In this document: positions 1,356-36,716 of the stretch, piece by piece
Layout of the letters: each line of letters starts with the position of its first letter
Numbering within the stretch: position 1 is the stretch's first letter
Position numbers and translations under genes: made by a program
DNA from: Iocasia fonsfrigidae
Lineage (GTDB): Bacteria; Bacillota; Halanaerobiia; Halanaerobiales; DTU029
Assembly (NCBI RefSeq): GCF_017751145.1
Contig: NZ_CP046640.1
Location: 1,220,137-1,284,136, forward strand
Direction of reading: 5' to 3'
Length of the DNA stretch: 64,000 bases
The notes under the pieces: generated by a model
What the model was told of the DNA's origin: nothing
Database searches by the model: none
The model's input: only the letters and a program-made list of their open reading frames with translations

Positions 1356-1579
1356 AAAGATTCCTCCTTTCATAATATTGTCTGGTATATATTATTTTTT
1401 AAAAAGAAAAGTGTGTAATAATTATCTGTATAATTTATTATTAGTAAGAATGAATCAAAAAATATGGTTGTATAATTAATGTTGTGAAGAAAAAACTGTA
1501 AATCAAAATAAAAAGACATTTGCCTGACTCCGTTGAATTAAATAGTTGTGACTAAAATTCAAAAAAGGAGGTCTAGCAA

Positions 1580-1651: not shown

Positions 1652-1680
1652 TTGACAATTAAACAAGATATTGCTATAAT
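1652..1680 (+). promoter_or_regulatory. Consensus sigma-A promoter of the rsgA leader
   Basis: TTGACA at 1652-1657 and TATAAT at 1675-1680 with exactly 17 bp between them. Transcription should begin near 1687, giving a 5' leader of about 540 nt before the rsgA start at 2224. Confidence 0.85.
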
Positions 1681-1717
1681 TGTATTGTAGTAATAAATAA
1701 ACAAGGGAAGTGCTTTG

Positions 1718-1741
1718 ATGCAAGTTGGTTTATTAATCTAG
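1718..1741 (+). CDS. Putative 7-residue leader peptide (MQVGLLI)
   Basis: ATG at 1718 lies after GGGAAG with suitable spacing, about 31 nt into the predicted transcript, and the frame closes with TAG at 1739. Nucleotides 1728-1740, within and at the end of this mini-ORF, are exactly complementary to 1840-1852. Ribosome position on the mini-ORF would thus alter downstream folding. This arrangement is known from attenuators of antibiotic-resistance genes. Translation itself is inferred. Confidence 0.5.
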   Translation: MQVGLLI

Positions 1742-1862
1742 TAAATTAAATATTCTATTCTTTTTTAAGTTTTTAAAATCCCAGGGATTAGTGGGTTTAT
1801 TTTTTGATACTTAAATTAAGACTTAAGAGAGTATAGTTTTAGATTAATAAACTTTTGTTTAT
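1728..1862 (+). promoter_or_regulatory. Competing RNA pairings in the rsgA leader
   Basis: GTTTATTAATCTA (1728-1740, in the mini-ORF) pairs perfectly with TAGATTAATAAAC (1840-1852). The same downstream arm can instead form a local hairpin ATAAAC-TTTT-GTTTAT ending near 1862. Mutually exclusive folds controlled by ribosome occupancy are the expected design of a translation-sensitive attenuator. A TGGGTTTATT motif recurs at 1792, at 1902 and at 2017, the latter two inside terminators. Confidence 0.5.
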
Positions 1863-1895
1863 AGATAGCTATATATTATATAGTACGTTATTTTT

Positions 1896-1928
1896 ATGCT
1901 ATGGGTTTATTAGCCCGTAGCATTTTTT
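1896..1928 (+). terminator. Leader terminator A
   Basis: ATGCTATGGG pairs with CCCGTAGCAT (10 bp, one G-U) around the loop TTTATTAG and is followed by TTTTT. It lies inside the rsgA leader, about 300 nt before the gene, so it should stop transcription unless disrupted. Confidence 0.75.
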
Positions 1929-2010
1929 ATTAGTTCTATATAATAACCTCTTAAACTGTTTTTGAGAATAATTTTATTGGCTAAGAGGGATCTATTCTGG
2001 ATGAATATCT

Positions 2011-2050
2011 AAGCCATGGGTTTATTTAGCCCATGGCTTTTGTGCTTTTT
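2011..2050 (+). terminator. Leader terminator B
   Basis: AAGCCATGGG pairs perfectly with CCCATGGCTT around TTTATTTAG, followed by TTTGTGCTTTTT. It shares the loop sequence and GGGTTTATT core with terminator A, which suggests a duplicated regulatory module. Confidence 0.75.
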
Positions 2051-2094
2051 GCTTATAAATAAATCTTATTTTAATTAATTAAGGAGTGATGACT

Positions 2095-2190
2095 ATGATT
2101 GTAAATCAAAGAGAAGTGACTGGTGAAATTGCGAGACAGAAATGGGTAAGTATTGTTGAGTTAAAAATACAAGAGAGATGGACTCTCTAA
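2095..2190 (+). CDS. Short ORF (31 codons) between leader and rsgA
   Basis: ATG at 2095 follows AAGGAGTGATGACT, a strong ribosome binding site, and encodes MIVNQREVTGEIARQKW... ending RWTL with TAA at 2188. It sits between terminator B and rsgA. It could be a second leader peptide or the stub of a gene replaced by rsgA. I do not recognise it. Confidence 0.35.
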   Translation: MIVNQREVTGEIARQKWVSIVELKIQERWTL

Positions 2191-2223
2191 GCATTTGTTG
2201 GAATAAAAAGGGAGGGAAATACA

Positions 2224-3255
2224 TTGAGTTTAGCAGATTTAGGTTGGAATCAAGATTTTGAAAATAAATTCAATCAAATTAATAATCAAGGAGGTTATCA
2301 AGTAGCCAGAGTTGCTGTAGAGTATAAGGGGATTTATAAGCTATATACTGAAATAGGAAAGGTTTTAGGTGAGATAACAGGTAAGATGCGTTATAACAAT
2401 AAATTTCCTGTAGTAGGTGATTGGGTAGTTGTCGATTTACAAATTGGAGGAGAGCGGGCTATAATTTATGACATTTTACCTAGAAAGAGTAAGTTCTCTA
2501 GAAATAGAGCAGGAAGTAAAGCTCAAGAGCAAATAGTAGCTTCTAATGTTGATACTGTTTTTATAGTTACTTCTTTAAATCAAGATTTTAATTTAAGGAG
2601 AATAGAGCGATATTTGACAATTACCTGGGATAGTGGTGCTAATCCTGTTGTAATTTTAAATAAGGCTGATTTATGTGATGATATTGAGGCTAGAAAGAGT
2701 GAAGTAGAAGCTATTGCTTTGGGAGTTCCGGTTCATGTAATTGTTGCTTTAGACAATAAAGGTATTGAGCAACTGAAAAAATATTTTAAAAAAGGAGATA
2801 CTGTTGCTTTATTAGGTTCTTCAGGAGTAGGTAAATCTACTTTGATTAATAGTGTACTCGGTAAGGAAAAGATGAAGGTTAATAATATTAGAAAAGATGA
2901 TGGAAAGGGAAGACATACTACTACTCATCGGGAGATGATTCTTTTAGAAGAAGGTGGAATCATTATTGACACTCCAGGAATGAGAGAAATTCAATTATGG
3001 GATGTTTCTGAAGGATTGAGTGATAGTTTTACAGATATAGAAAAATTAGCTCAAGAATGTTATTTTAATGATTGTCAGCATGATTCTGAGCCCAGATGTG
3101 CAATTAAGAATGCTATTAAAGAAGGAATCATTACAGAAAAAAGGTTTAATAGTTACAAGAAGCTTCAACGAGAAATAAAATATATGGAGATTAAGAAGAA
3201 ACGAGGGGCTAATGCGGCAGAAAAATATAAGTGGACGACACTTGGAAAATTATAA
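2224..3255 (+). CDS. rsgA: Ribosome small-subunit-dependent GTPase A paralogue
   Basis: 343 residues with the circularly permuted GTPase order of RsgA/YloQ. The N-terminal OB-fold is followed by G4 (NKAD near 150), then G1 (GSSGVGKSTL near 195), G2/G3 (TTTH; DTPG near 245) and a C-terminal zinc finger (C-x6-H-x6-C in CYFNDCQHDSEPRC). RsgA acts in late 30S maturation and in releasing factors from the 30S subunit. The TTG start at 2224 is chosen by GGGAGGG seven bases upstream. The long attenuator-like leader is unusual for housekeeping rsgA and suggests an inducible second copy. A GNAT gene follows after 130 bp. Confidence 0.92.
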   Translation: MSLADLGWNQDFENKFNQINNQGGYQVARVAVEYKGIYKLYTEIGKVLGEITGKMRYNNKFPVVGDWVVVDLQIGGERAIIYDILPRKSKFSRNRAGSKAQEQIVASNVDTVFIVTSLNQDFNLRRIERYLTITWDSGANPVVILNKADLCDDIEARKSEVEAIALGVPVHVIVALDNKGIEQLKKYFKKGDTVALLGSSGVGKSTLINSVLGKEKMKVNNIRKDDGKGRHTTTHREMILLEEGGIIIDTPGMREIQLWDVSEGLSDSFTDIEKLAQECYFNDCQHDSEPRCAIKNAIKEGIITEKRFNSYKKLQREIKYMEIKKKRGANAAEKYKWTTLGKL

Positions 3256-3384: not shown

Positions 3385-3996
3385 ATGGAAAATATATTAA
3401 TTAGATTAGAAACTCAGGAAGATTATAGCGAAACAGAAAATATGATTAGAGAAGCATTTTGGGATGTTTATAAACCTGGATGTGATGAGCATTTAGTACT
3501 TCATAAGCTTAGGCAGGTTTCTGCTTTTGTAGAGGAATTAGATTTAGTTGCATGTGATAACAATAAAATTGTTGGTAATATTGTTTATTCAAAGGCAAAG
3601 ATAATGAACAATCAAAATCAAGAATTTACAGTTTTATGTATGGGACCTTTAGGGGTATTACCTTCTTATCAAGGAAGAGGAATTGGCTCATTATTAATAA
3701 AACAATCCATTTCAAAAGCAAAATTATTAGGTTATAAGGCAGTTGTAATATTTGGAGATCCAAATTATTACCGACGTTTTGGGTTTGAAAATGCTGAAAA
3801 ATATAACATTCAAACAGCACAAGGTGAGAATTTTGATGCGTTTATGGTGTTAGAACTTTATGATGACAGTTTAAACGGAATACAAGGTAAATTCTTTGAT
3901 GATCCAGTGTTCCGAATACAAAGTGAAGAATTGGAATTGTTTGAGAAGGAGTTTCCGTATAAGGTAAAACACATTATAGATACTCAACTAAAATAG
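3385..3996 (+). CDS. GNAT N-acetyltransferase, YhbS-like
   Basis: A 203-residue acetyltransferase of the COG3153/YhbS type. It opens with ENILIRLETQEDYSETENMIREAFW and has the acetyl-CoA binding motif VLPSYQGRGIGSLLIKQSI near residues 90-110, then VVIFGDPNYYRRFGFE, a typical YhbS signature. The frame is open back to 3292, but AAGGAG at 3372 sets the start at ATG 3385. The substrate is unknown. It lies directly after the inducible rsgA paralogue, so a shared stress response is possible. A hairpin at 4061 follows. Confidence 0.85.
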   Translation: MENILIRLETQEDYSETENMIREAFWDVYKPGCDEHLVLHKLRQVSAFVEELDLVACDNNKIVGNIVYSKAKIMNNQNQEFTVLCMGPLGVLPSYQGRGIGSLLIKQSISKAKLLGYKAVVIFGDPNYYRRFGFENAEKYNIQTAQGENFDAFMVLELYDDSLNGIQGKFFDDPVFRIQSEELELFEKEFPYKVKHIIDTQLK

Positions 3997-4409
3997 ACGA
4001 TAATTATGATCACAATTATTGTCTGTGTTTCCTTAAAATATCAATATATATTTGATTATTTAGAGATTCCGTAAAACGGAATCTCTAAAAATTATTATAA
4101 AGTTTGTACTTACTGATGGAGATAAATTTGATGGTGAGCTTTCTGCCAGGCCTAACGGCACAGGTGCGTCATAACAGGAACGTTATATAATGCTAAAATT
4201 TATTACAATCATGATCAATAAAATCGGATAAAATATAATTAGAATCTCTTTCAGCCATAGCATGGCGTATCTTATGTAATAGTCTTCAATATTCTTCCAA
4301 TTAATAAGGTTAATGCAGGAAACTATATTTTAATATTGAAATATTGTATTAGCAAGGCAAAATAAATCACAGTACTAAATGTAGTAAACGTACTAATAAA
4401 TGGAGGTTC
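3997..4409. other. Intergenic region with hairpin and decayed coding trace
   Basis: An 11-bp hairpin (TAGAGATTCCG / CGGAATCTCTA, 4061-4087) follows the GNAT gene and lacks a strong T-tract. From about 4100 one frame reads KFVLTDGDKFDGELSARPNGTG, a protein-like trace that soon stops. I see no intact gene here. Confidence 0.5.
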
Positions 4410-7631: not shown

Positions 7632-7684
7632 GAATTATTAACTGCAGTTGAAATTAATTTAAGAAAGAGTTATAATTGAAGTAA

Positions 7685-7828
7685 ATTCTCAGGGAAGGGT
7701 GAAATTCCCTATCGGCGGTAAGTATACAATTAGTATACAAGCCCGCAAGCGTTTGCTATTTATTTGGCAAAGCCAGCAGATTTGGTGAAAATCCAAGGCC
7801 GACGGTAAAGTCCGGATGAAAGAGAATG
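7685..7828 (+). ncRNA. FMN riboswitch (RFN element)
   Basis: The conserved RFN blocks occur in order: TTCTCAGGG, GGGTGAAATTCCC, ATCGGCGGTAA, GCCCGC, GCCAGCAGATTTGGTG, AATCCAAGGCCGACGGT, AAGTCCGGATG and AGAGAA. The 5' arm ATTCTCAGGG (7685-7694) is also exactly complementary to CCCTGAGAAT at 7911-7920, just before the ribB ribosome binding site. That gives a visible alternative pairing for switching. High FMN should repress ribB. Confidence 0.95.
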
Positions 7829-7943
7829 GAATATTATTGTAAATTAGTATTATGGCAAGAATAGTTGCCTACATATATCTATTTATAGTATTTCTATTTT
7901 TTATCATAATCCCTGAGAATATAATTTAAATTTAGGGGGTATT

Positions 7944-8594
7944 ATGATGGATTTATTAACAACAGAATTTGGAAACTCAGAGGAAAGGATTAAAAACGCT
8001 TTGGATAGTTTGCAGAGCAATAATGGAATTTTGCTAGTAGATGATGAGGACAGAGAGAATGAAGGGGACCTTATTTTTCCGGCAGAAACGATTAGTGTAT
8101 CTCAAATGGCTATGTTAATAAGAGAATGTAGTGGTATCGTTTGTTTATGTATGACAAAACATAAATTAGACCAGTTGAATTTAAAGCAGATGGTTACTAA
8201 TAATACCAGCAAATATCAAACTGCATTTACTGTATCAATTGAAGCTGCTTCTGGAGTGACAACAGGTGTTTCGGCCTCTGACAGGGTAACTACAATTCAT
8301 ACTGCAGTAAAAGCCGACTGTAAAAAAGAAGAGTTGTGTTCTCCTGGTCATGTTTTTCCTCTTTGCGCAAAAGAGGGAGGGGTTTTTACTAGAAAAGGTC
8401 ATACTGAGGGAACAGTAGACCTCATGAAACTGGCAGGACATAAACCGGCAGGAATCTTATGTGAATTGACTAATCCTGATGGAAGTATGGCTAAGCTTCC
8501 AGAGATTGTAGACTTTGCGAAAAAAAATAATTTACCAGTGGTATCTATAGAAGATATTATTCAATATCGTAAGTTAAATGGGAAATTAGTATAG
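7944..8594 (+). CDS. ribB: 3,4-dihydroxy-2-butanone-4-phosphate synthase
   Basis: A 216-residue stand-alone RibB, similar in length to the E. coli enzyme and not fused to RibA. It converts ribulose 5-phosphate to the four-carbon precursor of the lumazine ring in riboflavin synthesis. Visible signatures are [16 protein letters not shown] near residues 33-48 (acidic metal-binding loop), [16 protein letters not shown] and the substrate-binding [24 protein letters not shown] precedes ATG 7944 (ATG 7947 is an alternative). It is controlled by the FMN riboswitch upstream and closed by the hairpin at 8657. Confidence 0.95.
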
Positions 8595-34837: not shown

Positions 34838-36716
34838 GTGCGCCAAGAAAAGAGCATATCATATAGTAGGTGGGAATCCTACTGAGGAAGGTTTAGCAAA
34901 CCACTCATAGCGAGTTTTGGACATTTAATGGGTAACCATAGATGTTAAGCGTAAACAGTTAGGTAGTAGGCGGTAAGCATTTAGCTGAAGGGATTGAGCC
35001 TCGAAATCTTGGAGATTGGGAAAGGCCGATGCTGTCGACTGAGCAGAAGGCAACATTATAGTATTCGATAAGCGAGAATACAATAACACCCCGGGGTCGG
35101 AGACCTCCGCATGCTATACATAGATATGATATTGTTAACTTGGGAGGCCCTGTAATTTCTACGCAGAGAGATAGGATGTAACCAAGCGATAACAAAGTAA
35201 GGACATCTAATATTACAGGGAGTCGGATAATCGCATAGTACCGAGGAAGCAGAGTAATGCCTGTGGATGGGAAGGCGATTACACAAGATTAATCTTAAAA
35301 GGGAAACATATTCTATACACAGAGATAGGTGAAAATGTGGAAACGAAACTTGCAAGAATAGCTGAAGTAGCTAGAAATAGACCTAATGAAAGATTTACAT
35401 CACTAATACATCTAATTAATTATGAATTGATAGTCAAATGTCATCATGAACTAGCTGGAAACAAAGCAGCTGGAGTAGATGAAGTAACAAAAGCGGAGTA
35501 TGGAAAGAATCTTCCAGGGAATGTTAAGAGCTTAATAGCTAGAATGAAAAGATGGGCATATAGGCCATTACCTGCGAAAAGGGTATATATTCCAAAAGAA
35601 AATGGGAAGAAGAGACCGCTAGGGATTCCAGCATACGAAGACAAACTAGTTCAAAAGGCACTATCAAAGATTCTAAATGCGATATATGAAGAAGACTTTC
35701 TTGAATGTTCATTTGGTTTTCGTCCAGGAAGAAACTGTCATGATGCCTTGAGAATATTAGGAAGAATAGTTAACAGAGATGATATTAACTATGTAGTTGA
35801 TACAGATATTAAAGGATTCTTTGATAATGTAGACCACGGGTGGATGATGAAATTCATTGACCATCGAATTAAAGATCCTAATATACAACGACTCATATCG
35901 AGACTTCTTCGGGCTGGAGTCATGGAGGCAGGAATAAAATATGACACTCCACAAGGAACACCGCAAGGTGGAGTCTGTTCTCCAATTATGGCGAATTTAT
36001 ATCTACATCATGTTGTTGACCTATGGTTTAATAAAACAATGCGTAAAGAGTTAAAGGGTAAAGCTTACATGGTGAGATACGCAGATGATATAATATTTTG
36101 CCTACAGTATAAAGAAGATGTAAAATACTTCTATAAAGCAATGAAAGAAAGAATATCCAAATTCGGTTTAGAGTTATCAGAAGAGAAAACTAAGATAGTA
36201 AATGTATCTGCTGATGATGACAATGACACATTTGATTTTCTTGGATTTACCCATTATATGGGTAAATGTAAGGATGGAATCAAACGACTAAAGAGAAAGA
36301 CAAGTAATAAGCGATATCATCGTAGTATAATGAGATGTAAATCCTGGCTAAAATATAATAGAACTCTTCCAGTAAAAGAACTAATGAGGAAGTTAAACAG
36401 AAAACTAACAGGAACATACAACTATTATGCAGTATCAGATAACAGCAAAAGTATTGATAGCCTGTATGATGAGGTTCAAAAGCTAGTTTATAAATGGTTA
36501 AACAGACGCAGTCAAAAGAAAAGCTTTGACTGGGAGAAGTTCGAAATATTCTTGGAGAAATATCCTATTGTCAAGCCAAGAATAAAAGTAAATTTATATA
36601 GATTAGGTGCTGGTGCTAGTTATGTTAGGTGAATAATCGAGTGAAGAGCCGTATGCCTAAATAGGGCACGTACGGTTCTGTGAGGAGTTGGGGTTGTAAA
36701 GCCCCGCTTACTTGAC
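34838..36716 (+). mobile_element. Group II intron inside jetC
   Basis: The 5' end is GTGCGCCAAG, the canonical GUGYG boundary. Domain V is at 36646-36678 (GAGCCGTATGC...GCACGTACGGTTC, with the AGC triad). Domain VI is a GGGG/CCCC hairpin ending in TTACTTGAC. Placing the 3' end at 36716 gives an AC terminus, puts the candidate branch A seven bases from the end, and joins the exons in frame. Total length is 1879 nt with one RT/maturase ORF in domain IV. The insertion interrupts the ABC signature codons of jetC. Confidence 0.92.
35337..36632 (+). CDS. ltrA: Group II intron reverse transcriptase/maturase
   Basis: 431 residues. RT blocks are in order: YRPLPAKRVYIPKENGKKRP, FGFRPGRNCHDAL, VVDTDIKGFFDNVDH, TPQGTPQGGVCSPIMANLYLH and the catalytic MVRYADDIIF near 245. 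A thumb/maturase X domain follows (KELMRKLNRKLTGTYNYYAV). It stops after about 430 residues without an HNH endonuclease domain, so mobility would rely on priming from replication forks. GTG 35337 follows AGGTGA. All catalytic motifs look intact. Confidence 0.95.
   Translation: METKLARIAEVARNRPNERFTSLIHLINYELIVKCHHELAGNKAAGVDEVTKAEYGKNLPGNVKSLIARMKRWAYRPLPAKRVYIPKENGKKRPLGIPAYEDKLVQKALSKILNAIYEEDFLECSFGFRPGRNCHDALRILGRIVNRDDINYVVDTDIKGFFDNVDHGWMMKFIDHRIKDPNIQRLISRLLRAGVMEAGIKYDTPQGTPQGGVCSPIMANLYLHHVVDLWFNKTMRKELKGKAYMVRYADDIIFCLQYKEDVKYFYKAMKERISKFGLELSEEKTKIVNVSADDDNDTFDFLGFTHYMGKCKDGIKRLKRKTSNKRYHRSIMRCKSWLKYNRTLPVKELMRKLNRKLTGTYNYYAVSDNSKSIDSLYDEVQKLVYKWLNRRSQKKSFDWEKFEIFLEKYPIVKPRIKVNLYRLGAGASYVR

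Follow-up and report, generated by a model that had tools for sequence, protein, structure and literature searches.

A precedent for ribosome-acting GTPases under attenuator control is found in Listeria monocytogenes, where an extra GTPase, HflXr (lmo0762), is encoded behind a constitutive small RNA, rli80, which carries a mini-ORF, an arm and an intrinsic terminator, the housekeeping copy lying elsewhere in the genome (PMC6310831). Comparable attenuators precede ABC-F genes such as vmlR, msrD and vga, in which a mini-ORF, a complementary arm and a leader-copying terminator are combined. In the toiL-topAI-yjhQ system of E. coli, several ribosome-targeting drugs are sensed by stalling at different codons of a mini-ORF whose RNA base-pairs with an element further downstream (PMC12121999).

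Paralogues of RsgA occur in many phyla, and some are encoded on plasmids. To our knowledge, no role beyond ribosome assembly has been assigned to them. A literature search for rsgA with an upstream ORF or attenuation, with subscription papers mostly outside its coverage, returned no report of such a leader. The RsgA/EngC pair SCO6149 and SCO5211 of Streptomyces coelicolor is listed among the WblC paralogue pairs, of which the WblC-activated member rises with tetracycline (the passage does not specify which of the two this is; PMC7157823), and rsgA is included among the protein-synthesis genes tabulated in the berninamycin-cluster section of a self-resistance screen (PMC9290621).

Here, we describe a 540-base stretch in front of an rsgA paralogue (rsgA2), located in a window of 64 kb (the whole stretch of DNA that was analyzed). 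This stretch is probably an RNA switch through which rsgA2 is read only when ribosomes stick on a mini-gene.

Organization of the leader and its genes

A sequence-only reading of this DNA had pointed out a perfect promoter, a 7-codon leader ORF, 13 nt of complementarity with a downstream arm and two related terminators with a common repeat. All four were recovered (Table 1). Transcription is expected to start near 1687; a -35/-10 pair is also present in relatives at a similar distance, and a G-rich stretch occupies the place of the Shine-Dalgarno in the aligned copies. The helix formed by strand 1 and the arm comprises 15 bp, of which 13 are Watson-Crick with a G-U at both ends, and it is part of the minimum-free-energy fold of positions 1687-1930. 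The energy of this fold was -60.4 kcal/mol versus -41.9 (sd 4.2) for shuffled sequences (z -4.4), and none of 200 shuffles was as good. The same reading had taken the local hairpin for a competing structure; instead, it is nested within the leader:arm pairing, and the real competitor is the pairing of the arm with TGGGTTTATT, which both terminators contain. A third TGGGTTTATT at 1792-1801, inside the inner hairpin, is not conserved.

Table 1. Features of the leader and of the genes that follow it (positions in the window)
Feature	Position	Strand	Basis or remark
Sigma-70-type promoter, extended -10	1652..1680	+	TTGACA-17-TATAAT, TG before -10; 12/12 consensus
Likely Shine-Dalgarno of mini-ORF, AAGGGAAG	1703..1710	+	sequence
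Leader mini-ORF, 7 codons, MQVGLLI and stop	1718..1741	+	ATG CAA GTT GGT TTA TTA ATC TAG
Leader strand 1, partner of the arm	1727..1741	+	MFE fold; conserved pairing
Nested inner stem-loop, holds conserved GGGGATTAGT-like segment	1755..1836	+	MFE fold; shuffle comparison
Arm (strand 2), partner leader strand or terminator strand 3	1839..1853	+	folding, covariation
Intrinsic terminator 1, loop GGGTTTATT, strands 3 and 4	1896..1923	+	terminator scan; conserved
Intrinsic terminator 2, loop GGGTTTATTT	2011..2039	+	terminator scan
Second small ORF, 31 aa (MIVNQREV...), own AAGGAG	2095..2190	+	ORF list; between terminator 2 and rsgA
rsgA paralogue (RsgA2), TTG start, full-length	2224..3255	+	GTPase motifs, C-x4-C-x-H-x5-C zinc motif
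GNAT acetyltransferase, likely same operon as rsgA2	3385..3996	+	PF13508, PF00583
Intrinsic terminator after operon	4059..4089	+	terminator scan

Six terminator-like sites were counted in 6 kb, versus 1.4 expected. The pattern TGGGTTTATTN0-2AGCCC occurs at only two places in the 3.93 Mb genome, terminators 1 and 2, and GTTTAT is found in two of the 13 terminator-like hairpins of the window, both in the leader. Similar starts of the second small ORF (MIV/MIA/MID) were seen at several related loci. The RsgA2 protein scored 195.3 bits with PF03193 (cut-off 30) and 187.8 bits with TIGR00157 (cut-off 100), and it shares 31% identity with the genome's other RsgA.

When the window was scanned with Rfam, only an FMN riboswitch and a group II intron reached the gathering score, and the leader matched no family. 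We regard it as a new family of putative attenuators whose target, an rsgA paralogue, is also of a new kind. The FMN riboswitch (7681-7831) lies upstream of a ribB gene (7944-8594); the group II intron (34873-36716), with its reverse transcriptase/maturase gene (35337-36632), begins in the last bases of a 1412-aa ORF without Pfam match. In addition, a stretch of about 90 bases is present twice in the genome, 82% alike (window 1457-1547; L163 1501-1586), each copy just upstream of a short ORF with a good ribosome-binding site, MQNNLIIKLLDLPDLIATANRTL and stop in the window and MAFIVEKHKIPG and stop in L163. At the latter, ATACCAGGT is complementary to a later ACCTGGTAT.

Two partners for the arm

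The repeat in both terminators is a copy of the leader sequence, so that the arm can pair with the leader or with a terminator. In foldings without the 3' half of the terminator, the arm paired with the free leader over 10-13 nt in all 11 confident copies of the family (see below); when the leader was masked, the arm was found on the half-made terminator, over 1-9 nt (11 of 11; 8.6 in the window). The second helix, short and rich in AU, is weak in one copy (L088). Once complete, the terminator outcompetes the arm at equilibrium, also when the leader is masked; readthrough must therefore depend on kinetics. Leader, arm and terminator may be modelled as a three-state attenuator, in which the second pairing of the arm, with GTTTAT of the terminator, is new here.

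In the mechanism that we propose, transcription would begin near 1687 and ribosomes would complete MQVGLLI and leave, after which the end of the mini-ORF would pair with the arm (1839-1853). With the arm occupied, terminators 1 and 2 would form and rsgA2 would not be transcribed. If a ribosome stalled on the mini-ORF, with an antibiotic against the ribosome as the most likely cause, it would cover the leader strand. While RNA polymerase is still short of the 3' half of terminator 1 (or 2), the free arm could then capture the GGGTTTATTA of that terminator co-transcriptionally; the polymerase would pass and RsgA2 and the GNAT would be made. RsgA2 would in turn act on the small subunit or on stalled ribosomes, as HflXr acts on stalled 70S. 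We consider it likely that rsgA2 is controlled by such a ribosome-mediated transcription attenuator, with an antibiotic as the most probable cause of stalling.

Conservation of the leader and nature of the signal

The upstream regions of the rsgA paralogues of relatives were compared in gene orientation, and several carried the same leader. A first covariance model, built from six leaders, was run over 59 genomes of the class and gave 10 strong copies. A second model (R2) added one copy, located upstream of an ABC-F gene (L125). In total, 11 confident copies were obtained in the 59 genomes, 10 of them outside the window, together with a divergent copy upstream of an rsgA paralogue in G022 (L073); weak R2 matches at E 0.08-1 were left out. 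Over 398 genomes of a sample of the phylum, R2 gave only false matches outside the class in an insensitive search that scored 6 candidates per genome, and a mini-ORF pattern search of the phylum sample likewise returned only false matches outside the class. Four rsgA2 loci of the class show no visible leader (G004, G015, G030, G054); in G030, an IS30-like element is found upstream of speD-rsgA2 (L113). In the tree, the rsgA2 proteins of the class make up a diverse group across which the leader is scattered, which suggests an old leader with losses.

On plasmids, the leader DNA was sought and none was detected. The RsgA2 loci of Brevibacillus and Peptoclostridium plasmids possess short ORFs upstream, but these were rejected, as the regions folded no better than shuffles and had no terminator. 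A search for GNAT genes next to RsgA2 in other phyla gave few matches, and no association there is proposed. On a Lysinibacillus plasmid (L159 2995-7032), an rsgA paralogue is followed by the fosfomycin-resistance gene fosM, a HAD hydrolase gene and metG.

An rsgA-paralogue operon, often with GNAT or speD, stands behind nine of the 11 confident copies (ten with the divergent one). The gene directly after the leader is rsgA2 in the window and in L063, L066, L067 and L069, as well as in the divergent L073; GNAT and then rsgA2 follow in L058, L059 and L060, and speD and then rsgA2 in L062. One copy precedes bpsA and speD, without rsgA2 (L091 and L115). The sequence-only reading had proposed a search for the leader before other genes, and it is this search that uncovered the homologous leader of the ABC-F gene, whose product scored 416.7 versus the NCBI cut-off of 380 for ribosomal protection. 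The leader concerned is the most divergent confident copy; its arm and a central CCAAGG[AG]ATTAGT segment also occur in the rsgA2 leader of that genome, which suggests that the two leaders descend from one ancestor. A recognized resistance-type gene is found behind this one copy of 11 only. Judged from sequence, its ABC-F gene would be the best evidence for antibiotic sensing and, since a relative of the rsgA2 leader precedes it, suggests that the GTPase RsgA2 is part of a response to ribosome-targeting drugs. Separately, the genome of the window has an ABC-F gene (L137) preceded, upstream of position 1501 (G000:C1:1108521), by an attenuator-like leader of another type (MRISTLTIQ and stop), which contains TACTTTAACCA, TGGTTAGAGTA and, later, TATTCTAACCA; related leaders precede ABC-F genes in L138-L140.

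The presence of the leader upstream of bpsA-speD (G020) and speD-rsgA2 (G033) could also indicate that the same attenuator responds to a shortage or excess of polyamines, ribosomes pausing accordingly at the end of the mini-ORF and the operons tuning the synthesis of polyamines (speD, bpsA), their acetylation (GNAT) and the assembly of 30S (RsgA). Polyamines do promote stalling at other upstream ORFs (as cited in PMC12121999). However, no polyamine gene lies beside the leader in nine of the 11 confident copies, the ABC-F gene has the leader and the GNATs score below the cut-off as spermidine acetyltransferases. A polyamine signal was therefore judged improbable in comparison with antibiotic stalling.

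The mini-ORF itself encodes MQVGLLI, MKVGLLI, MKVSLLIG, MRVSLLIR, MIVGLLIK, MKVRLLI, MNVGLLI or MEAGLLI, and MKFLLI at the ABC-F copy. In the ten copies where MxVGLLI-like peptides align, the third codon reads GTN, with each of the four bases at its last position, apart from one GCG. This free third base argues for selection on the leader peptide and, as a codon pattern, suggests that the mini-ORF is translated. As TTA TTA ATC is also fixed by the pairing with the arm, these codons are weaker evidence on the peptide. The RLR motif of macrolide leaders (rli80 type) was sought in MQVGLLI and its relatives and not found, and the peptide contains no other known arrest motif.

Since Leu-Leu-Ile codons occur in all confident copies, a starvation attenuator was envisaged, in which uncharged leucine or isoleucine tRNA would stall the ribosome at TTA TTA ATC; the unit lies between ilvD and a downstream ilvB-like gene in G057 and after ilvD in G058. 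Yet only three such codons exist, fixed by the arm pairing, the controlled genes are not branched-chain amino acid genes and, among the genes read, the remaining copies have no ilv neighbours, which makes this signal very unlikely. As to gene order, ilvD precedes the leader-GNAT-rsgA2 unit in two related genomes (L090 and L092 with L060 and L059).

The sequence-only reading had also made its ribosome-mediated attenuator depend on conservation of the mini-ORF and the pairings, and it gained support here: in the 10 further confident loci, the mini-ORF, the arm and the terminators are retained and compensatory changes are found. The mini-ORF overlaps one strand of the leader:arm helix, in which 99.3% of cells were paired (10 of 10 aligned copies) and three pairs differed on both sides between copies; with the partner shifted by one column, the pairing fell to about half. 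The same overlap was seen in L125. For the inner stem, the copies differ in sequence, and 10 of 11 folded better than at least 94% of shuffles. The family comprises 19 terminators in 11 copies, the second one being present in eight, and GTTTAT is found in 13 of the 19. While strong terminators would also suit a small RNA that simply ends there, or a promoter insulated by terminators, without regulated readthrough, this is hardly credible given the compensatory leader:arm changes, the codon-level conservation of the mini-ORF and terminator loops that copy the leader sequence.

RsgA2 compared with known translation-stress systems

If attenuation by stalled ribosomes operates at rsgA2, RsgA2 could be a drug-inducible GTPase dedicated to ribosome protection or rescue at the small subunit, the equivalent of HflXr for 30S. 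Amine acetylation, polyamine synthesis and ABC-F protection would be tied to it by the one attenuator family, as parts of a single translation-stress programme. We put this forward tentatively, at somewhat less than even chances. The polyamine genes speD and bpsA would fall under the same switch, and an antibiotic-type attenuator before RsgA paralogues offers a direct and cheap test of whether a small-subunit resistance or rescue class exists.

The leader resembles the ABC-F attenuators in its design, and one member of its family precedes an ABC-F gene; it differs from them in its main target, the RsgA paralogue, and the mini-ORFs before most of the ABC-F genes read in the class (e.g. MRISTLTIQ) are unrelated. 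As in toiL, the mini-ORF pairs with a downstream element, but toiL combines translational control with Rho (PMC12121999), whereas intrinsic terminators are used here. The WblC/WhiB7 regulon of Streptomyces likewise includes an RsgA/EngC paralogue and 16 GNAT genes, under a DNA-binding activator, in contrast to the cis attenuator proposed at the target gene in the window (PMC7157823).

Induction was shown for hflXr (PMC6310831) and is predicted for the window leader. Moreover, HflX splits 70S and RsgA acts on 30S; the rli80 leader has 14 codons with RLR, compared with seven codons (MQVGLLI) and two terminators in the window. All the traits of the hflXr locus given at the outset are nevertheless shared, namely an extra ribosome-acting GTPase behind a constitutive small RNA, the mini-ORF, the arm, the intrinsic terminator and a housekeeping copy elsewhere, and hflXr under rli80 is the closest and direct precedent for rsgA2.
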